Below are positions 1 through 9,112 of a DNA stretch of 64,000 bases, piece after piece (the first letter of the stretch is position 1; every line of letters begins with the position of its first letter). This DNA is from Gelidibacter salicanalis. Lineage in GTDB: Bacteria > Bacteroidota > Bacteroidia > Flavobacteriales > Flavobacteriaceae. The DNA lies in contig NZ_JAEHJZ010000007.1 of the NCBI RefSeq assembly GCF_016469035.1, positions 62,001-126,000 of the forward strand, written 5' to 3'. The notes beneath the pieces were generated by a model. The model saw nothing but the letters and a program-made list of their open reading frames with translations, had not been told where the DNA came from and made no database searches. Made by a program: the position numbers and the translations under genes.

Positions 1-1466
1 TCAATCCAAATCACATCGCGATACTCACTGTCAATCAATGCCAAATCTGGGGTTGCTGACCCATCAAATTTTTCTGAGCCATCTTTTACCGCAGACACCG
101 TTCCTAAGAAAAACATCCGTCTGCGGCCAGCAATATCTTTTATATAAGGTCTGAATTCTACTGGCTTATTAACAGACCAATCATATTCCTTGCGAGACTC
201 AATTATTTTTAACGGCATTGCAGAAACGCCAGCATAACCTTGTTTCTTAGCAGCATGATCATAATAAAACAATTTATTCGTGCCGTCTGCAGGCACAAAT
301 ACACTATAGGTCAAACTGGTGCGCTCGTCTCCGATAGGCTCTAATCCGAACCAATGGTACAATCCGCTATAGGCCTTAGCATCCACCGACGAAAAATCAA
401 AATCGGTAACAAAAGGCTGCTGATTCTGATCTTCTGGCAAATCTGGAATTTTTACAGCGGTTTCCATTTTCCATGGTAACGGATCCGTAAATCCGCCTAA
501 GAATTTTAAGGACTCCGCTTGTAATCTGGATACTTTTTCAGATAGCGTGTTTTGTCTGGTTAAAAATGGATAATTTTTCATATTATCGGGGCTGACATAC
601 GTGCCTTTTCCAATTAAAACCCGCTCCATATAGTCGTTAAAATCGTGCTCGCCACTATCTATAATCATCACACCACCAAAAGTTGGATAAGGGAAAAAGA
701 AACCTTTCCACTTAATTAAGCTCACGACTTCCACCCATTTTCCGGAATCATTTTTCATATAAAAGGTATCGCCCGGCTCCATATTGAAGAGTTGCCAAAT
801 ATTGAAACGCTGCACCACTGCGTTATAGGTGTTTCTGCTAAATTTTAAAGATTCGCCAATAGAAAACGTTACTGGAATACGGTTCTCATTGGAGAATCGA
901 GGAAATGGTGATGTACTGGATACAGCAAAGACTTCCTCTGTATTCTCACTGATTTGCTGCATGGTATATTTCTCGGAAGGCTGGATAGCCATGGTCCATT
1001 TGTTTTCACCATCTACTCTTACCAAATGGGGTAAGGACACATCTTTAGTCTCTCCAACCGATTCGTTGGCCATTGAATAAATATTACGCAACGGTTGAAT
1101 GCGTTCATTTTGGGTAAGCGGCAATTCATTAATTTGAACTTTATTTAAGTTGTTAAATACATTGTAGGTTTTTACATAATCGTACATTTTAAAATGCCCG
1201 CCAATTATATATAACAGTCCAAAGAACAAAATCAACAAAGCTAAAATTCCGATGCGTCGTCCCACGCTGGCTGAGTTCCTAAAGCTTCGCAATCCGAAGA
1301 ACAACACCAAGCTTATCACGAGAATCACGAAAATATATTTCCTCATCCATAATAGAAATGGCTGGTAATCATCCCGAAGAAAAAACAGTAATAGCACCAA
1401 AACCAAGGCGGCAATAATGGTGATTGATTTTTGTCTACTCCCTCTATTCCAATAATTCTTTATCAT
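1..1466 (-). CDS. Large membrane protein of unknown function, partial (C-terminus outside window)
   Basis: The frame is open from an ATG at 1466 to the window edge, giving 488 codons with no stop. The N-terminus has three hydrophobic segments at about residues 14-30, 42-58 and 72-88. A long soluble region follows, rich in aromatic residues and beta-prone, with no motif I can name. After the third segment this region is probably on one face of the membrane. The gene is the last visible member of the minus-strand run that starts at 9001, and it follows the three-helix gene at 1540-2064 by 73 bases. I do not recognise the family. The stop codon and full length lie beyond base 1. Confidence 0.75.
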   Translation of the reverse strand, partial: MIKNYWNRGSRQKSITIIAALVLVLLLFFLRDDYQPFLLWMRKYIFVILVISLVLFFGLRSFRNSASVGRRIGILALLILFFGLLYIIGGHFKMYDYVKTYNVFNNLNKVQINELPLTQNERIQPLRNIYSMANESVGETKDVSLPHLVRVDGENKWTMAIQPSEKYTMQQISENTEEVFAVSSTSPFPRFSNENRIPVTFSIGESLKFSRNTYNAVVQRFNIWQLFNMEPGDTFYMKNDSGKWVEVVSLIKWKGFFFPYPTFGGVMIIDSGEHDFNDYMERVLIGKGTYVSPDNMKNYPFLTRQNTLSEKVSRLQAESLKFLGGFTDPLPWKMETAVKIPDLPEDQNQQPFVTDFDFSSVDAKAYSGLYHWFGLEPIGDERTSLTYSVFVPADGTNKLFYYDHAAKKQGYAGVSAMPLKIIESRKEYDWSVNKPVEFRPYIKDIAGRRRMFFLGTVSAVKDGSEKFDGSATPDLALIDSEYRDVIWI

Positions 1467-1539
1467 AATTACACTGTTCTTTTAATAAACTTAATTAAAA
1501 TATCAAACTCAAACCTCAGTCCTCATACCTCACACCTAT

Positions 1540-2064
1540 CTACATCAACCCTTTATCCTTCAATCGCTCTCTTGCGCTCTTTTTTGGTAAATTAGGATCT
1601 TCCTCTATTTCTTTTTTTGCTTCTTCTACTACTTTTGGCTCTCTAGTGGTAATATCCTGTATAAAATCACGCCCTTGATCGATGGCTTTATCAAATTTTT
1701 CTTCAACGGTATTACTATGCGCGTCGATTACTTTTTCAGATTTTAGCACAAATCCGCCAATATACGTACCTATAAGCGTCCCTACAATACTAGAAGCAAA
1801 GACTGAAATGGTAGCAATATCTATCGGAATTAAAAAACGTGCGACTACTATTCCTATCAAAAAAATCATGGTAATGAATACCAAGCGCAACAGGAATTTT
1901 TGTTGGTATAAGAATCCCTTTGGATCATCGGGCGACATCTGTAGGTTTTTGGAATACATCAACTTATTTAAAAAACGATACAGTCCGTTGCCTGTTGATT
2001 CTCGCCAATACAGCAAGATTCCGAATAAAATTGAACCTATGAAAACGATGATTTCTAGTGTCAT
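1540..2064 (-). CDS. Small three-helix membrane protein, unknown function
   Basis: A 174-residue protein with hydrophobic segments at about residues 4-20, 59-80 and 84-107. The charged C-terminal tail (from about 115) is predicted to be helical and rich in Glu and Lys, and it ends in a basic stretch. The segment between the last two helices is glycine-rich (GTLIGTYIGGF), typical of tight helix packing. It sits in the minus-strand run with the AAA+ ATPase and coiled-coil genes, so it may anchor that complex to the membrane; this is inference. It matches no family I can name. Confidence 0.75.
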   Translation of the reverse strand: MTLEIIVFIGSILFGILLYWRESTGNGLYRFLNKLMYSKNLQMSPDDPKGFLYQQKFLLRLVFITMIFLIGIVVARFLIPIDIATISVFASSIVGTLIGTYIGGFVLKSEKVIDAHSNTVEEKFDKAIDQGRDFIQDITTREPKVVEEAKKEIEEDPNLPKKSARERLKDKGLM

Positions 2065-2104
2065 TATGTTGTGTTTTTAATGCTTAATAGGTTAATAATA
2101 CTAC

Positions 2105-2284
2105 AACCCTTCCGTCTTTAGGCTCTTTCCTGAGCCTAAATCCACCTTCCCTTATTAAGGGAAGGAATTTTTGTGATTGTTACTTTATAATAAGCTTATA
2201 AATTCATAAATAATTAAAGCTTCTCCTCCTTTTTAAGGAGGAGTGGATTCAGTTTCAGTAAAGAAACTGAAGACGAGGTGGTTA
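2105..2284. repeat. Pair of palindromic repeat elements, head to head
   Basis: Two elements of one family lie in opposite orientation, about 2105-2170 (minus) and 2219-2284 (plus). Each reads hairpin, then TGGATT, then a second hairpin, then an AGACG-GGTGGTT-type tail. The hairpins have different sequences but the same architecture: CCTTCCCTT/AAGGGAAGG and TAGGCTC/GAGCCTA in the first copy, TCCTCCTT/AAGGAGGA and AGTTTC/GAAACT in the second. The same pair recurs at 6262-6390 with the other mutual orientation. The layout resembles REP/BIME elements. No transposase is near. Confidence 0.75.
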
Positions 2285-2333
2285 ATTTCCAAAATATAAA
2301 CCTTCCCACTCCCATAAAATTAGTCTATAAAAC

Positions 2334-3569
2334 TTAAATATTGTTACGAATCGTCGCAATAACCCAATCTTTCAATGAATTCTCCCAAGTCTCATAGTTT
2401 TTATAAAACAACTCCTTATCATACCAATACAGAAAAAGGACATCCAATGGCGCGATATTAACTAACAATTTCCAGATTAAATCCTGATGCTTCACGTGTA
2501 ATGATGAATGAGGTTCATTTATTCCTTCAAAAAGTTCAACATCAACAATATCTGCCAGTTTATGCTGATTACTAATTTCCATCTTATCCAGATACAGTTC
2601 AACACCCATTACTTTTTTCCGATCTTCGATTGACAATTTGTTCAAATATCCCTTAAATAACACATTGTCTTCCAAAATATCTATGATAGGATGTGGTGTG
2701 TTTTTTAAATACTTAGCTAACATAAATTTTTTGATCCGGTCATAACGTGGAGTTTTTACAACGGCATCTAAATCATATGCAACAATTAGGTGATCGCGCA
2801 ATTTATCCATCAATTCTGGTTGTGAAATATGATAGATCAACACATCATAAGTTGTATCCATAATCGCTTCCTTATGCCACTTTTCATCTTGAAAAACCAC
2901 GATTGGTGTAATAAAATCGCGCAATACAAAAACACCTCCAAAAGCTTTAGTGTAAAAGGAATCTGTAGTAAAATATAATTCTGGAAGCTCTAGATTGCGA
3001 TGCCTTAAATCGCCATAAGTTTGAGCAGAGTCCAATAATTGTTGATGCAAGCCTTCATCAATAAAATTATGACCCTGTTTGAATTTATCAATTAATTCAA
3101 ATTGCTGCATTTGGACTTTATCCAAATTATTAATCAGCTTGAACGTAATGGAAATATCTCCATATTTTAAGACATCCAAAGGCTCATAAAACGCATCAAT
3201 GTGCTGATCAAAGTGCACACAAATGGCGCAATCTCTAGTAATATCATTAATTTTATCGCCATGAGTTCTAAACACATGCTGCATCATTTCCCGATCGAAT
3301 GTATGAAACGGCACATAGACCGGCTTTCCTTTTTGCAACGGGGTAATGATAATAGCATTCGGATTGGCTTCACCGTTATTCAAATAATGGATTTCCTGCT
3401 TCTCTTCAGCAATTTCAGGGCTCCAACCAATTCCATCGATAGAAAAATTAGTGAGCTTTGTTTCCGTAAACCCTAATATTTTAAGGCACTGATTGTAACG
3501 CTCAACCAATTTCCCGCTGATGGGAATGAGTTCATCTCTATATAAATGTGCTGCTTTTAATTTTTCCAT
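2334..3569 (-). CDS. Conserved-looking soluble protein, unknown function
   Basis: A 411-residue protein without a signal peptide or membrane segment, so probably cytoplasmic. The sequence is acidic, rich in His, Asp and aromatic residues, and mixed alpha/beta, with no P-loop, HTH or other motif I can name. The C-terminal third looks helical. It lies 59 bases downstream of the Nudix gene and upstream of the two membrane protein genes, in the same minus-strand run. It may be a partner of the AAA+ ATPase system, which is inference from position only. The start ATG at 3569 directly precedes a Lys/Ala-rich segment and no better start is visible. Confidence 0.7.
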   Translation of the reverse strand: MEKLKAAHLYRDELIPISGKLVERYNQCLKILGFTETKLTNFSIDGIGWSPEIAEEKQEIHYLNNGEANPNAIIITPLQKGKPVYVPFHTFDREMMQHVFRTHGDKINDITRDCAICVHFDQHIDAFYEPLDVLKYGDISITFKLINNLDKVQMQQFELIDKFKQGHNFIDEGLHQQLLDSAQTYGDLRHRNLELPELYFTTDSFYTKAFGGVFVLRDFITPIVVFQDEKWHKEAIMDTTYDVLIYHISQPELMDKLRDHLIVAYDLDAVVKTPRYDRIKKFMLAKYLKNTPHPIIDILEDNVLFKGYLNKLSIEDRKKVMGVELYLDKMEISNQHKLADIVDVELFEGINEPHSSLHVKHQDLIWKLLVNIAPLDVLFLYWYDKELFYKNYETWENSLKDWVIATIRNNI

Positions 3570-3628
3570 TAAAAAATTTCAATGTAATTATTTTTCCTGT
3601 TGAGTTTCGTTTCTCTATTCTCTTCTCT

Positions 3629-4228
3629 CTATTCTCCATTCTTTTTTCCAAGCAAACTATGTATATGTGCATACTGCAACAACATAATGGTTTTTGCATC
3701 TTGAATTTCTGTCGATTCAATCATTTTTAAAGCTTTAGAGAAGGGTAGCTCCATCACTTCAATTTCTTCGTGTTCACTTGCAATTCCTCCTCCTCCATTG
3801 ACTTTCATGTCGGCGGAATACGGTGCCACAAATAAATACATTTTTTCAGTTAAAGCCCCGGGAGATGTATATGCTTCCATCACCTTTTTAACTTCCTGTA
3901 TTCTGTAACCAACTTCCTCTTCCACCTCTCTTATTATTGTAGATTCTGGCGAATCCTTATCATCAATAGCGCCAGCACAGACTTCAATAGACATACCATC
4001 TTCTTTTTTTGTTTGGTAAATAGGCATCCGAAATTGTCGTGTTAAAATAACTGTACCTTTTTCCGGATTGTACAATAAAATTCCGGTGCCATGGCCACGA
4101 TCATAACTTTCACGAGAGACACGCTTCCATGAGCCGTTTTTAAATTGATAATCATAATTGATTTCTGACAAGGTTGCCCAAGCTTTAGAAAGTGTTTTAA
4201 TATGAATATTTTTTATGTTGTCTAACAT
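3629..4228 (-). CDS. nudK: Nudix hydrolase, NudK-like (GDP-mannose pyrophosphatase type)
   Basis: A 199-residue protein, close to the usual length of about 190 for the NudK family, which hydrolyses GDP-mannose and related nucleotide sugars to GMP and the sugar phosphate. The Nudix box is at about residues 96-118: G-x5-D-x7-REVEEEVGY. The usual first Glu is Asp, while the metal-binding REVEEE core is intact. The family context is also present: YDRGHGTGILLYNP before the box, TRQFRMP, and SPGALTE plus a GGGG loop after it. The gene is 31 bases downstream of the AAA+ ATPase gene and in its run. Whether it serves that system or just shares the transcript is unknown. The symbol is a family assignment. 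Confidence 0.85.
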   Translation of the reverse strand: MLDNIKNIHIKTLSKAWATLSEINYDYQFKNGSWKRVSRESYDRGHGTGILLYNPEKGTVILTRQFRMPIYQTKKEDGMSIEVCAGAIDDKDSPESTIIREVEEEVGYRIQEVKKVMEAYTSPGALTEKMYLFVAPYSADMKVNGGGGIASEHEEIEVMELPFSKALKMIESTEIQDAKTIMLLQYAHIHSLLGKKNGE

Positions 4229-4259
4229 TCTATAAATTTTGTCTGATTAGGTTTTGTTT

Positions 4260-6218
4260 TTAACTATCAAATTTGCGACGTGCTGTCAATTCGATGTTGA
4301 GGTCGTTGACTCTAGATTCCACTTGGCGTTTGAAATCAGTATCTGCAATTGTTGCTACGTTGTCTAAATACCGCACCACTTCCTGACGTCTTATTTCAGA
4401 AAAATCGAGACCTTTCATATTGGCACGCATCAATTCTTGGAGCATATTAAATTTGGTATTATAATCTTGTTTAAAATAAACTTCTGGATTATCAAACCAC
4501 GAGGCTTCCAAATCAAAATCGGTTAGACGCAATGAAATGGCCGATTGGATATTCCGAACGTCCCTCGACGAAAAGAATGGAAACACACGCTGCATTTCCT
4601 TATATAAATTGGCATAAAACTGATGTTCATTGGTTTGGAATTGGCTTTCCACTTGGTCATAAACTGCATGGACACGCTCTTCTGAAGGTTTACCGACAGA
4701 TTTCAGAATCTCTCCCATGTTTTTTGCCAAACCTTGATCTTGGAGATACTGATACTGCTCCGGATTTTTCATGTTTACAAAACCAGGCATCGTGTTTTGT
4801 AACTTACGCCACCATAAATGATCCTGATCTAAAAAGTCGTGTTCCGTCTGTGCGCCATCAATTTTAAATCGGCCTTGAACACGGGAAATCACCGCCTTAT
4901 CCAACATTTCTGGTAAATTGGTAAATAATCCGATGGCACTATTTCCATAATTTACGGCATAGGCCCCTTCGGTATATCTTAAAAACACGCCAATCACTTC
5001 TTTTACACCAGCCGACACACCTTGTGCTGTACGCTCCTGCAAGTTGTTCTCTGCGTCATCAATAGGTGCAAAAATCAGTTTTGTAGGATCTTGCATCGGT
5101 TTCATCCATTCCACCATCTTTTCAGCAGAACCACCTTGAAATGTCGAAATTAAGGTATCTGGCATGGGATGGAATAGAAATGGCAGCTCCAAATGGTCAC
5201 AATATTCTTTTAATCGTGTCGCGATGGCTGCGATGAGCATACTTTTTCCTGTTCCCGGAATTCCATAGCCCATAAAAACTGGCATAAACCCGCCCAACTC
5301 CTGAAACGGATTCTTTTTTGCCGTAAAATCGTAACTCAACATACGCTCAGTCAATCGGCGGGCGAAATGCTTGGCATCTTTATTTCCAACAATCTGCTCA
5401 AACTGAATTTTATTAAACGCGACACTTTTGGCGGCTCCTGCAAACACATTGGTCCAGCCAGAAATCGCAAATTCAGAATGTTCCAACTTATAGGTTCTGT
5501 CCAAAATGGTTTCCTGATGTTCCAAAGTTGATTTCCGCATTTGGATTTCGTCGATCAACGCTTCAAAAAACACGACTGTAAAATCGGCTACATCTTTATC
5601 ACTTTTAATGATATCTGGATGCCCTAAATACTTGTCATAATAAAATAAGATACACGCCACACCTTTTAAGGGCGACAATAAGGAAATCTCAGGAATACCC
5701 GCGAACTTTTGTTTCATAACGCTTAAATCGTCAGAAGCATACGGTTTTAGGTTGTGTAAAATATGATAAGCGACTGAAAACAACATGAACGCAGTTGCCG
5801 TGTGCATTTTGCTTTCGTATTCCCGTTTACCCATACTGTCCAAGGACGCTTTGCGCTCATTTAAGCTGGACAATCCTGACGCATCATAATAACTATCTTT
5901 AATCCACACGCCCAGCGTCAAACCTTCCTGAACAGCGTATAAGGTTTGATTGAGCAACACAGGAATTGCAATAGAATCTGGCAACAAACGTTTTTTAAGC
6001 TCTAAAATAGTTTTGGAAACAGCCGTTGTTTCTGCTACATTAGAACCGTTGTTAGCTCGAGAAAGATACAGGAGAATCGATTCCTCTTTAGCATCCTTAT
6101 CTTTGTTTTTGGCGCGTTGCCCTTGCTCCCATTGGATACTTTTAAGGTACGATGCTGCTTCATCGCGAAGCATATCGAGTTCGTTCTGTTTTATTGGGAA
6201 TGTTGAGTTTTGTTGCAT
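4260..6218 (-). CDS. AAA+ ATPase, divergent, unknown function
   Basis: A 652-residue protein with a helical N-terminal region of about 300 residues, a single AAA+ domain and a helical C-terminus. The Walker A motif is at about 317-326 (GYGIPGTGKS). The Walker B region is at about 381-391 (LIFAPIDDAEN), with Asp-Asp where most AAA+ proteins have Asp-Glu. A sensor-1-like LFTNLPE is at about 431 and a possible arginine finger, ISRVQGRF, at about 444. Such ATPases usually act as hexameric remodellers. Its neighbours are a coiled-coil protein, two unknown soluble proteins, a Nudix hydrolase and two membrane proteins on the same strand. The substrate is unknown. Confidence 0.85.
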   Translation of the reverse strand: MQQNSTFPIKQNELDMLRDEAASYLKSIQWEQGQRAKNKDKDAKEESILLYLSRANNGSNVAETTAVSKTILELKKRLLPDSIAIPVLLNQTLYAVQEGLTLGVWIKDSYYDASGLSSLNERKASLDSMGKREYESKMHTATAFMLFSVAYHILHNLKPYASDDLSVMKQKFAGIPEISLLSPLKGVACILFYYDKYLGHPDIIKSDKDVADFTVVFFEALIDEIQMRKSTLEHQETILDRTYKLEHSEFAISGWTNVFAGAAKSVAFNKIQFEQIVGNKDAKHFARRLTERMLSYDFTAKKNPFQELGGFMPVFMGYGIPGTGKSMLIAAIATRLKEYCDHLELPFLFHPMPDTLISTFQGGSAEKMVEWMKPMQDPTKLIFAPIDDAENNLQERTAQGVSAGVKEVIGVFLRYTEGAYAVNYGNSAIGLFTNLPEMLDKAVISRVQGRFKIDGAQTEHDFLDQDHLWWRKLQNTMPGFVNMKNPEQYQYLQDQGLAKNMGEILKSVGKPSEERVHAVYDQVESQFQTNEHQFYANLYKEMQRVFPFFSSRDVRNIQSAISLRLTDFDLEASWFDNPEVYFKQDYNTKFNMLQELMRANMKGLDFSEIRRQEVVRYLDNVATIADTDFKRQVESRVNDLNIELTARRKFDS

Positions 6219-6261
6219 ATTCTATTATAATGCGAGTTTATACTTTAACGTTCATTACTAA

Positions 6262-6390
6262 TTCTCCTCCTTTTAAAGGAGGAGTGGATTCAGTTTTGGT
6301 AAAAACTGAAGACGAGGTGGTTATTCAACCCTTCCGTCTTAAATTCCTTAACTGGAATTTAATCCACCTTCCCTTTTTAGGGAAGGAATT
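6262..6390. repeat. Pair of palindromic repeat elements, tail to tail
   Basis: A second copy of the two-element repeat described at 2105-2284, with the plus-oriented element at about 6262-6322 and the minus-oriented one at about 6329-6390. The GGTGGTT tails face each other. Hairpins are TCCTCCTT/AAAGGAGGA, CAGTTTT/AAAACTG, AAATTCC/GGAATTT and CTTCCCT/AGGGAAG. Stem sequences differ from the first locus, but both arms have changed together, so base pairing is kept. It fills the gap between the AAA+ gene and the preceding gene. Confidence 0.75.
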
Positions 6391-6391
6391 T

Positions 6392-7453
6392 TTATAGTTT
6401 ACTTATCTGCAAATCCGCAATCTGAATAGGTGGCTTTGCCAATCCATTCATAATTTCCGGTCTTTTGCTATACAATAATTGAATGATACGATGCGGGGCC
6501 AAAACATAACTCTTATTGACGGGTTGATTCCATTTTTGTAAGGTTTGTTTTGAGAAATAACCGCCTTCTGTAAATTCACTTCCGGAAGTCACGTCATCAA
6601 TTTTCAGAGATAAGGCATAGGATTCCAAGGGAACATCTTTTGCTGCGATACTTTCTAGAATAGTATGCGTGATCAGGTTTTCATCTTTGGCAAAAACGTT
6701 ATGGAAAGGCCCTAAATCGATACGTTTGATGTGTTTTGGTTTGACATCTTTTAACTTCCTGTCAATTCCGTAAGCCATAACATCCAAATTCATATCTCTA
6801 TCGGCAGTGGTTTTAAGCACCTCATAAATCATTTCTTTACTGGCGTCTATGGTATGGCCTTCAAAATCGAAATACATATAGCATACAAAAGGTCGGTTGC
6901 AACCCACATCAAAGAAACTCCAGCTGGTCATGAACTCACCTACTGCACCTTCCGGTGCTTTTATTATTTTACCTTGAACAAACCGATTGAAAATAAATTT
7001 TTGTTCAACAGACGTGTAATACACAATGGAAGCCGCTTGAAACAACTTAGTCCTACTAACAGGTCCTTTCTTTCTTAAAAGAGTATCCAAAAACTCTTCT
7101 TGCAGTTCACTGACATCTTTAAGTTTATTGACGTAATTCTCTTTTAAAGACAAGTCGTTAAACAGATAACGGAACTCCAAATAATTAGGAAAACCAGATT
7201 CAGTTAAATCTACTTTCATATGCTCCTCTTCATCATACATGTATTTGACACGCATGGCTTCAATAGAATACAAGAGCAAATCAGCATATTGTTTAAAAAA
7301 AATAATTTCTTGTGTGGTACATAATTGATTGTATTGCGCAGTTACAATTAATTCCTTTAAAGCAAAATCGACCATTTTATGATAGAACACATACTGCGAC
7401 TTGGAATCGAGGTAGGCAGAATCTAATGGTGTTACAATGTGATTAATGGACAC
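6392..7453 (-). CDS. Soluble protein of unknown function in the AAA+ gene run
   Basis: A 353-residue protein with no signal peptide or membrane segment. The N-terminal half is predicted mostly helical (about 20-170), and the C-terminal half mixes strand and helix around a Cys/aromatic-rich stretch near residues 185-200. I see no catalytic signature. It follows the coiled-coil gene by about 200 bases, which hold a separate repeat element, and precedes the AAA+ ATPase. The conserved placement between these two suggests an adaptor, which is inference. The start ATG at 7453 is the first in frame. Confidence 0.7.
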   Translation of the reverse strand: MSINHIVTPLDSAYLDSKSQYVFYHKMVDFALKELIVTAQYNQLCTTQEIIFFKQYADLLLYSIEAMRVKYMYDEEEHMKVDLTESGFPNYLEFRYLFNDLSLKENYVNKLKDVSELQEEFLDTLLRKKGPVSRTKLFQAASIVYYTSVEQKFIFNRFVQGKIIKAPEGAVGEFMTSWSFFDVGCNRPFVCYMYFDFEGHTIDASKEMIYEVLKTTADRDMNLDVMAYGIDRKLKDVKPKHIKRIDLGPFHNVFAKDENLITHTILESIAAKDVPLESYALSLKIDDVTSGSEFTEGGYFSKQTLQKWNQPVNKSYVLAPHRIIQLLYSKRPEIMNGLAKPPIQIADLQISKL

Positions 7454-7514
7454 TTTTATATAGTTAAAATGATTATAGAAGACTTATCAATGAGCACCTA
7501 AACCTTGTTTTGAA

Positions 7515-7625
7515 TCTGTATTTGCGTTAAGGGTTGCAGCGGCATCCTTTTTTCTTTTTCAGAAAAAAGATACAGCGGAAAACCTGACCACGCTTTTTTG
7601 CGTGGGAACGCCCAAATTAAAACAT
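7515..7625. repeat. Intergenic repeat with hairpins
   Basis: A non-coding segment with a perfect 6-bp hairpin CCACGC-TTTTTT-GCGTGG at 7588-7605 and a weaker CTTTTT/AAAAAG hairpin upstream. The wording GCAGCGGCATCC...ACAGCGGAAAACC recalls an intergenic repeat I associate with Flavobacteriaceae, which I could not check. An ORF that spans it is a by-product of this repeat. Confidence 0.45.
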
Positions 7626-7657
7626 CTGAACTTTTAAGCAGATAGATTGATATCCTC

Positions 7658-9001
7658 TTAAGATAACAGTTCGTCACCTGTGTTCTCAGGTTTTGGAGTT
7701 GGTTTGGCAGCCTCAGGAGTTTCTGAAGGTTTGGTGGCATCTGCCTTATAGTAATCTTCAAAAATCTCTTTCATGTCAATGCCATAACGCTCTGCAAAAT
7801 TCTTCTGGATGTCACTGTCTTTAGCACGAATTTCCTGTAAAGCTTCAGCATAACTGCTGTACACGCCTTGCATCACTTTTTCGTGCACTGGAATGTTTTC
7901 CATCATTTCCTGACGCGCTTTGGCACTTGCAGTATGCATTGAGGCTAAAGTTTCGCCAATATGCTCATCAGTCTTCACTCCCAAATGTTCTAAAATAGCT
8001 GCAAATTCCTGGTCTGTACGCGCTTTTAATGCAACCACATACCCGTCATAATACTTCAATCGTTCTTCCGTATCACTTTTTAATTTGGCACGGTGGGTTT
8101 GTAAATTGCTGCGTAAAGAGGTTAAGACTTTAATGGTCAGATTATGTTTGTGTACAAAACTGTCCTTACTCGCCGCCAAAGTGGTGTACGCATTTTTGAG
8201 GCCTTCCAATTCTTCAATTTTTTGCTCTAGCGTGGTCACTTTACCAACAGCTTGTGCATAATTAGCCGATTGCTTGTCTACAATTTCCTCTAACTCCTGA
8301 CGTGCTTGTCTTAAAAGCGCATAATTCTCATCGAGCTTTCCTTCTACCTCTTTCTTCTTTTCTAAAGCTCGCGTATGATTTTTGGTAGCTTCAACAATAG
8401 CCACTTGAAGTTTATCTTCAACTTCTTTGATTTCAACTTCTCGGTTTTTTAAGCGAGAAACTGCTGCTTGACTTTTAAACGACAGTTCGCTTAAGAGGGT
8501 TTGTACATCAGCACTTTCAATACGCTCCTGAAACAAGGCTTTTGCTTTATTATCTGCTCCTGCCCTTATTTTTTCAGCTTCCTTAAATTCTTGCTCCTCT
8601 TTTTTAATTCTGCTCTTACGTCCCCATAGGTTATTCCACCAGGTGTCTGGCTTATTGCGCGCATCTTCCAATTCAATTCGGGCACGTTCCAAGGCTTTTT
8701 GAGCTTCGTCAATAACACGTTGCTCATCGGGATTCAGCGAAGAGAATTTTTCAAATATGATCCCAACTTCATCTTGATAATCGGTCAAATCTTTAATAGC
8801 ATCCAACAAAGTTGTTCTGTCCTTTTCTGCCATATGGACCACATCATCCAATGTGGCATTGAGAATTTTTTGGCGCGATTGCGGATCATCTTCTTGAGCC
8901 AATTTAGATTTCATGGTGTCAATTGCTTTCCCCCAATTGACATCTACTTTTCCTGTTTTTTCGTTGGAATTGGTTTCTAATAAATCAAAATCATCAGACA
9001 T
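7658..9001 (-). CDS. Long coiled-coil protein, first gene of the AAA+ run
   Basis: A 447-residue, highly charged helical protein. Heptad-like coiled coil runs from about residue 75 to 320, with an Arg/Lys- and Trp-containing hinge near 125-145 (DTWWNNLWGRKSRIKKEE). The C-terminus is a low-complexity Pro/Thr/Glu-rich tail (about 420-445). There is no signal peptide. It loosely resembles TelA-like toxic-anion resistance proteins in being an all-helical cytoplasmic protein, but I cannot support that assignment. It is the promoter-proximal gene of the minus-strand run. A structural or scaffold role for the ATPase is possible. Confidence 0.75.
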   Translation of the reverse strand: MSDDFDLLETNSNEKTGKVDVNWGKAIDTMKSKLAQEDDPQSRQKILNATLDDVVHMAEKDRTTLLDAIKDLTDYQDEVGIIFEKFSSLNPDEQRVIDEAQKALERARIELEDARNKPDTWWNNLWGRKSRIKKEEQEFKEAEKIRAGADNKAKALFQERIESADVQTLLSELSFKSQAAVSRLKNREVEIKEVEDKLQVAIVEATKNHTRALEKKKEVEGKLDENYALLRQARQELEEIVDKQSANYAQAVGKVTTLEQKIEELEGLKNAYTTLAASKDSFVHKHNLTIKVLTSLRSNLQTHRAKLKSDTEERLKYYDGYVVALKARTDQEFAAILEHLGVKTDEHIGETLASMHTASAKARQEMMENIPVHEKVMQGVYSSYAEALQEIRAKDSDIQKNFAERYGIDMKEIFEDYYKADATKPSETPEAAKPTPKPENTGDELLS

Positions 9002-9112
9002 ATGGTAATTTTTTTAGTGCGTTGGACATATTTTTAGTGAGTACAATTTCGTTAAAAAATATCGGTTTGAAGATTATTACTCCTTAAATTATTGGTAGTG
9101 ATTTTTACAAAA

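Follow-up and report, generated by a model that had tools for sequence, protein, structure and literature searches.

A six-gene unit of an AAA+ ATPase with coiled-coil and membrane partners, co-inherited in Flavobacteriaceae and partly shared with Proteobacteria

At the left end of a 64,000-nucleotide stretch of the Gelidibacter salicanalis genome (assembly GCF_016469035.1, contig NZ_JAEHJZ010000007.1, positions 62,001 to 126,000; hereafter the window), an AAA+ ATPase gene, AAA652, lies in a run of seven genes on one strand (Table 1). Six of these, encoding the coiled-coil protein CC447, U353, AAA652, a DUF6638 protein, and the membrane proteins TM174 and MEM565, form a core unit, with a Nudix hydrolase gene as an optional member. 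The unit is all-or-none in 87 of 299 sampled genomes of the family Flavobacteriaceae, whole in three other families, and partial in Alpha- and Gammaproteobacteria, including a counterpart run in Sinorhizobium meliloti, a species that is easily handled in the laboratory. It is probably an AAA+ remodelling machine with partners of unfamiliar kinds: four of its proteins fall in no family, and one more is assigned only to a domain of unknown function (DUF). We favor, with about even confidence, a membrane-anchored remodelling complex with a role in the cell envelope. Basic cell maintenance is carried out by AAA+ machines that have their own helical and membrane partners, such as Vps4, FtsH-HflKC, and RavA-ViaA, and the tight co-inheritance reported here makes the function of this unit directly testable by gene deletion.

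Six genes are inherited together within the family

An initial annotation, made from the window sequence, had described seven genes on one strand, and all seven reading frames were found on the minus strand where it had placed them. How often these genes stay together was scored across Bacteroidota genomes by searching 82 loci (the best 80 of 277 confirmed stretches, plus two more) with all seven proteins. The six-gene order was complete in 79 of these loci, more than expected by chance, and the other three (L023, L092, and L095) were cut by sequence ends. All seven genes occurred in the same order in 61 loci (60, plus L025 on the other strand), while 18 carried the six genes without the Nudix gene, which was present in 62 loci overall. 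Among 20 divergent loci chosen for their low identity from the 87 AAA652 carriers (AAA identity 67-76%), 17 retained the six-gene core as a single run (exceptions L137, L139, and L144), and none included the Nudix gene. The Nudix gene thus falls outside the constant core of the run to which it had been assigned, and, given its lack in 20 of the 82 loci and in every divergent one, a nucleotide-sugar step, which had been raised as a possibility, finds no support as a function of the core.

Co-inheritance was then evaluated in the 299 family genomes for AAA652, CC447, and DUF6638. AAA652 was detected in 87 genomes, with one match per carrier, CC447 in the same 87, and DUF6638 in 86, all of them AAA652 carriers. 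The exception, G338, is a genome that is 73% complete and whose AAA gene matches residues 1-323 only. MEM565 was found in five of the six genomes searched for it, the sixth being this same incomplete genome.

The best evidence that the genes work together, rather than merely travel together, comes from genomes in which parts of the unit are retained though the operon is lost. In G282, a single contig of 2.95 Mb, CC-U-AAA lies at 1.83 Mb, DUF6638-TM174 at 2.58 Mb (the two genes overlapping by 4 bases), and MEM565 at 2.68 Mb. In two draft assemblies, one core gene was located on a different contig from a run of other core genes: MEM565 apart from CC-U-AAA-DUF6638 in G464, and CC447 apart from AAA-DUF6638-TM174-MEM565 in G412. 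Distance-matrix correlations were 0.61-0.85 among the six core genes vs 0.40-0.68 with an ABC-F gene found in the neighborhood of 66 of 100 loci, a comparison uncontrolled for kinship to which we attach little weight. Co-inheritance of the ATPase, coiled-coil, and membrane genes as a unit is strongly supported by the gene order in the 82 loci, by the presence of AAA652 and CC447 in the same 87 of 299 genomes with DUF6638 in 86 of these, and by the retention of the order in other families.

Table 1 Positions of the unit genes and associated features in the window (strand relative to the forward strand of the contig).
Feature	Description	Position	Strand	Basis
CC447	Coiled-coil protein, first gene of the unit	9001-7658	minus	Open reading frame
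U353	No named family	7453-6392	minus	Open reading frame, GTG start
AAA652	AAA+ ATPase, Walker B Asp-Asp	6218-4260	minus	PF00004
Nudix hydrolase	YffH/AdpP subfamily, optional member	4228-3629	minus	TIGR00052
DUF6638 protein	411 aa	3569-2334	minus	PF20343
TM174	Three hydrophobic segments, basic C-terminal tail	2064-1540	minus	Alignment and hydrophobicity
MEM565	Three hydrophobic segments, then large conserved domain	1466-1, on past window edge	minus	Full gene, L009:9769-11466
TTTTTAACGAAATTG	15-base element, 57 bases ahead of the CC447 start codon	9044-9058	minus	Flank comparison
Metallo-beta-lactamase-fold gene	Divergent from CC447	Start 9092		
Dispersed genome repeats	Intergenic	2101-2289, 6322-6394, 7507-7617, 3607-3649		
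Flavo-1 RNA (RF01705)	Between CC447 and U353, opposite the operon	7519-7593	plus	51 bits vs gathering threshold of 42

The unit extends to other families and, in part, to Proteobacteria

Beyond the family, DUF6638 was detected in 3 of 198 genomes in a phylum sample, 4 of 196 in an order sample, and 5 of 247 in a class sample. Four of the class-sample carriers belong to three other families, and each of them shows the six-gene core in the window's order, with most neighbors abutting or overlapping and no gap wider than the 646 bases seen in L198. Identity to the window proteins across these four loci is highest for AAA652 (41-43%), MEM565 (34-39%), and DUF6638 (29-32%), followed by U353 (27-29%), CC447 (26-27%), and TM174 (23-25%). 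None of the four runs contains a Nudix gene, and the single weak Nudix match (E 8e-4) lies outside the run, on the opposite strand, in L199. Weak matches covering the ATPase core alone were left uncounted, namely five of the eight AAA matches in the phylum sample (E 3e-4 to 8e-4) and 20 matches on Burkholderia plasmids (E 1e-3).

At a larger distance, the gene succession CC-U-AAA-DUF6638 recurs on plasmid records of Vibrio, Sinorhizobium, Shinella, and Rhizobium (gene order examined in six of the ten records with the run). Profile comparison between Bacteroidia and Proteobacteria with hhalign gave E 1.9e-54 for AAA, 1e-35 for DUF6638, 6e-20 for U, and 7e-10 for CC (9e-15 with a wider profile). 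The ten plasmid records with AAA were also those with DUF6638 and with U, and CC occurred in these ten plus one, Rhizobium leguminosarum pSK03. No MEM565 was found in a search of the plasmids. The Sinorhizobium (CC-U-AAA-DUF6638-DUF2333) and Vibrio (CC-U-AAA-DUF6638) runs have homologs of four of the window genes, identically ordered, but differ from the window in that a DUF2333 membrane protein, or no adjacent membrane gene, replaces TM174 and MEM565, and in that the Nudix gene is absent. DUF2333 follows DUF6638 in Sinorhizobium and Shinella; the R. leguminosarum TP16 record lacks a DUF2333 match, and mfd follows DUF6638 in the Vibrio run. In the S. meliloti locus L157, AAA and DUF6638 are separated by an endonuclease-domain gene and a transposase. 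On pSK03, CC and DUF2333 are adjacent (L190:5989-8343) without U, AAA, or DUF6638, in surroundings that match those of the S. meliloti run (choline transporter genes, thymidine kinase, and formate-tetrahydrofolate ligase).

The annotated records examined name these genes generically, as hypothetical protein, ATP-binding protein, DUF6638, or DUF2333, and we found no paper naming DUF6638, PF20343, or PF10095 in the literature collection searched, although work outside it or under other names may exist. The initial annotation had seen no known counterpart of the run: this no longer stands for occurrence, since Vibrio and Rhizobiaceae have counterparts of four genes, and a Pfam DUF covers one, and it still holds in that no characterized counterpart was found.

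An intact ATPase with distinctive partners

AAA652 matches PF00004 with E 1.7e-8 (35.4 bits vs a curated cut-off of 21.2 in Pfam), and its best named matches, among the top 80 of 277 confirmed stretches, are from Gelidibacter, at 92-96% identity. With motif names assigned by position, Walker A (GxPGTGK), Walker B (IDD), sensor-1 Asn434, Arg446, Arg450, and Arg552 at the sensor-2 position are invariant in 108 of 108 sequences, and pore-loop position 360 is aromatic (F or Y) and followed by QG in all of them. The same motifs are kept in the four genomes of other families. This confirms the Asp-Asp Walker B of a divergent AAA+ ATPase as initially described, and the motif set as a whole is that expected of an AAA+ enzyme still active in threading. 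The best matches of AAA652 among PDB sequences are a VCP-like ATPase and Vps4, both weak (E 6e-4 to 2e-3) and covering the AAA cores only. Like these classical AAA ATPases, AAA652 has a Walker A motif, sensor 1, arginine fingers, and an aromatic pore loop; unlike them, it has its own N-terminal region of ~265 residues, the Asp-Asp Walker B, and other partners.

Three hydrophobic segments each were identified in TM174 and MEM565, and none in CC447, U353, AAA652, DUF6638, or the Nudix protein. TM174 ends in a C-terminal tail, KSARERLKDKG, whose strict pattern is matched by 88 of the 99 sequences compared and closely approached by the remaining 11; in the four other-family loci the tail is different but common to them (DDDWRKG). 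Such a tail may serve as a docking peptide. MEM565 extends past the window edge; in the assembly it is 565 aa long, and its gene ends 232 bases outside window base 1. Among 103 sequences, 122 of its positions are conserved in 95% or more, and these recur in three or all of the four distant sequences. The positive-inside rule predicts that the large domain of MEM565 lies on the side away from the cytoplasm. DUF4199 was recognized in 26 of 27 MEM565 members (Pfam, best E 1.1e-6); in the window MEM565 this match lies on the hydrophobic part and under the cut-off. Comparison of MEM565 and TM174 with DUF2333 (PF10095) gave hhalign probabilities of 0.1-0.4%, against a shallow DUF2333 profile of six sequences, and kinship with either was rejected.

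For the remaining proteins, the 411-aa product that had been listed as unknown is a member of a named family, DUF6638 (PF20343, E 9.4e-31; 107.6 bits vs a curated cut-off of 27), while the window CC447, U353, TM174, and MEM565 fall below every family cut-off in Pfam and NCBIfam. The best Pfam match among U353 family members reached E 0.033. Profiles of MEM565, DUF6638, CC447, and U353 matched no PDB sequence, and profile comparison was negative for U353 and DUF6638 as kin of each other or of the ATPase. The Nudix enzyme meets the subfamily model TIGR00052 (157.2 bits vs a cut-off of 79.55), in line with its initial description as NudK-like insofar as NudK is its nearest likeness within the YffH/AdpP subfamily; with 193 vs 234 bits, it is however under the cut-off of the NudK equivalog NF011585 (GDP-mannose pyrophosphatase). 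Alignments A1, A2, and A3 each combined the window protein with those of 26 of 78-79 loci, taken as every third by identity; A4 combined it with 20 of 78 loci, and A5 with 25 of 79, L121 being dropped (stop in frame).

A candidate regulatory element precedes the unit

Comparison of the 5' flanks of CC447 revealed a conserved 15-base element, TTTTTAACGAAATTG, which was exact in 56 of 99 flanks, within two mismatches in 91, and within three in 94; in 66 of these 94 it lies 55-58 bases from the start codon. By comparison, 13 of 4950 shuffled flanks contained it within two mismatches. The flanks without it are those of L082, L112, L118, L136, and L147. In the G. salicanalis genome, the only exact match is the one upstream of CC447 (9044-9058), alongside three matches with one mismatch, a number also reached by a reversed control pattern. 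In G282, where the unit is dispersed, the element precedes CC447 (one mismatch) and is missing before the split-off pieces, and it was absent when sought at the proteobacterial loci and in the four other-family flanks. Judging from this distribution, the element would most likely be a promoter or regulator site private to the operon within the family. The Bacteroidota promoter box TAnnTTTG was found upstream of CC447 in 18 of 99 flanks vs ~11% of shuffles, and is hardly informative.

A membrane-anchored remodelling complex is the favored reading

In the reading we favor, the proteins would bind one another, and a ring of AAA652 would pull a substrate through its pore. CC447 could be an elongated partner, either scaffold or client of the ATPase, and U353 and DUF6638 may act as dedicated adaptors or cofactors. 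TM174, via its conserved tail, and MEM565 would tie the complex to the inner membrane, in a predicted topology that places the large conserved domain of MEM565 on the far side. The job of such a complex would most likely be envelope maintenance or stress repair. This reading builds on what was observed directly, namely gene order, co-inheritance, intact ATPase motifs, and hydrophobic segments, and the adjacency of CC and DUF2333 on pSK03 also speaks for it; contacts between the proteins, threading, topology, and the envelope role are inferred from these observations.

An envelope role is suggested by the two conserved membrane proteins, by the genes found near DUF2333, and by a regulatory clue from S. 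meliloti. DUF2333 genes are located near extracytoplasmic function (ECF) sigma and anti-sigma genes in both of the other contexts examined, in Skermanella (L191:2821-7487) and on a Rhodobacteraceae plasmid (L192:4256-6747). In S. meliloti, one published account places a ChvI-bound fragment inside SMc02733 (PMC3687685), and another gives shmR as SMc02726 (PMC8343143); counting genes along L157 from a receptor gene presumed to be shmR would put SMc02733 in this operon.

Several observations weigh against this reading. The argument for the envelope is indirect, being drawn entirely from genomic context, and the Walker B motif of AAA652 has Asp where Glu is usual. The membrane partners are non-homologous between Bacteroidia and Rhizobiaceae, and the Vibrio run has no adjoining membrane gene, so that membrane anchoring may not be general. 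In addition, the pSK03 record has CC without the ATPase, and CC may thus act alone. Finally, the system is absent from 212 of the 299 family genomes, and is therefore not essential to the family.

Alternative readings

The foremost alternative, which we consider unlikely, is a machine resembling Vps4 and ESCRT, in which CC447 would polymerize on the inner membrane and AAA652 would dismantle the polymer. The weak PDB matches of AAA652 to VCP-like ATPase and Vps4 point in this direction, as does the strong conservation of CC447 along its length within the family (mean column identity 91%). Furthermore, PspA (PF04012) is absent from the G. salicanalis genome and from six sampled family members, vs its presence in 29 of 80 phylum genomes. 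However, the Vps4 match is limited to the AAA core, CC447 drifts at greater distance to 26-27% identity, with conservation below that of MEM565, and no ESCRT-III match was found for CC447 in Pfam and no PDB sequence match in a profile search. In a fuller, equally improbable form, the unit would be a bacterial counterpart of ESCRT/Vps4, with TM174 and MEM565 recruiting the CC447 polymer and AAA652 dismantling it through U353 and DUF6638 as adaptors, for inner-membrane repair in bacteria lacking PspA and shared partly with Vibrio and rhizobia. PspA/IM30 itself is, like CC447, a coiled-coil protein tied to membrane genes, but profile similarity is absent: CC447 has no Pfam match to PF04012, and hhalign gave 3.8% with a profile of 12 PspA proteins and 3.9% with a wider one. 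CC447 was also rejected as a member of the TelA toxic-anion resistance family (PF05816), which it resembles in being a long helical protein in a gene run; here too profile similarity is absent, with an hhalign probability of 0.1% against four TelA proteins and no Pfam match up to E 10.

Slightly less probable still is a defense role, directed at phages or plasmids, in which AAA652 would act as sensor or effector; the initial annotation had kept defense in play. The patchy presence in 87 of 299 family genomes would fit such a role, and PADLOC returned a match of the AAA core to IetA (E 1.8e-5) along with weak matches above 0.001 of CC447 to JetC (0.0031), TM174 to a 2TM effector (0.025), and U353 to PDC-M19A (0.024). 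Yet the second component of any such system is absent, and each carrier genome has one AAA652 match. Scans of phage records (AAA652) and viral contigs (DUF6638 and CC447), which reach close relatives only, returned no relatives. The neighborhood is stable, as illustrated by the frequent ABC-F gene, and the proteins are strongly conserved without the fast divergence usual in defense genes. These results give no support to a defense role. The anti-phage system IetAS was considered specifically and rejected: AAA652 scored 16.2 bits vs 510 with the NCBIfam IteA model, the PADLOC match is limited to the ATPase core, and the partner IetS, a protease, was not recognized among the neighbors of the unit.

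A purine- or pterin-related metabolic complex, in which U353 would be a T-fold enzyme, the ATPase its activase, and the Nudix protein an accessory, appears more doubtful again; a predicted structure model and fold comparison suggest a C-terminal domain of U353 that is T-fold-like at most. That these are unrelated housekeeping genes and neighbors by chance is highly improbable: the inserted genes that widen some gaps to as much as 8 kb would allow it, but it is contradicted by the presence of CC447 in the same 87 genomes as AAA652 and of DUF6638 in 86 of them, by the conserved order across families and partly phyla, and by retention after dispersal.

Repeats and inserts between the genes

The four intergenic repeats in Table 1 are dispersed in the genome, where the 9-kb stretch has at least 67 matches, the self-match included (40 of 111 candidates scored). 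Those near 2105 and 6262 had been raised as possible marks of unrelated transcripts, a view that does not hold given their dispersed nature and the conservation of gene order with or without inserts in the gaps. The Flavo-1 stretch (7519-7593) recurs elsewhere in the genome as well. Inserted genes, reaching up to 8 kb, occupy some of the gaps between core genes, and small inserts were observed in those of L056, L057, L072, L083, L105, and others, as if elements favored these gaps. The inserts encode what we take to be relatives of four-helix-bundle (23S rRNA intervening-sequence type) and GIY-YIG proteins.

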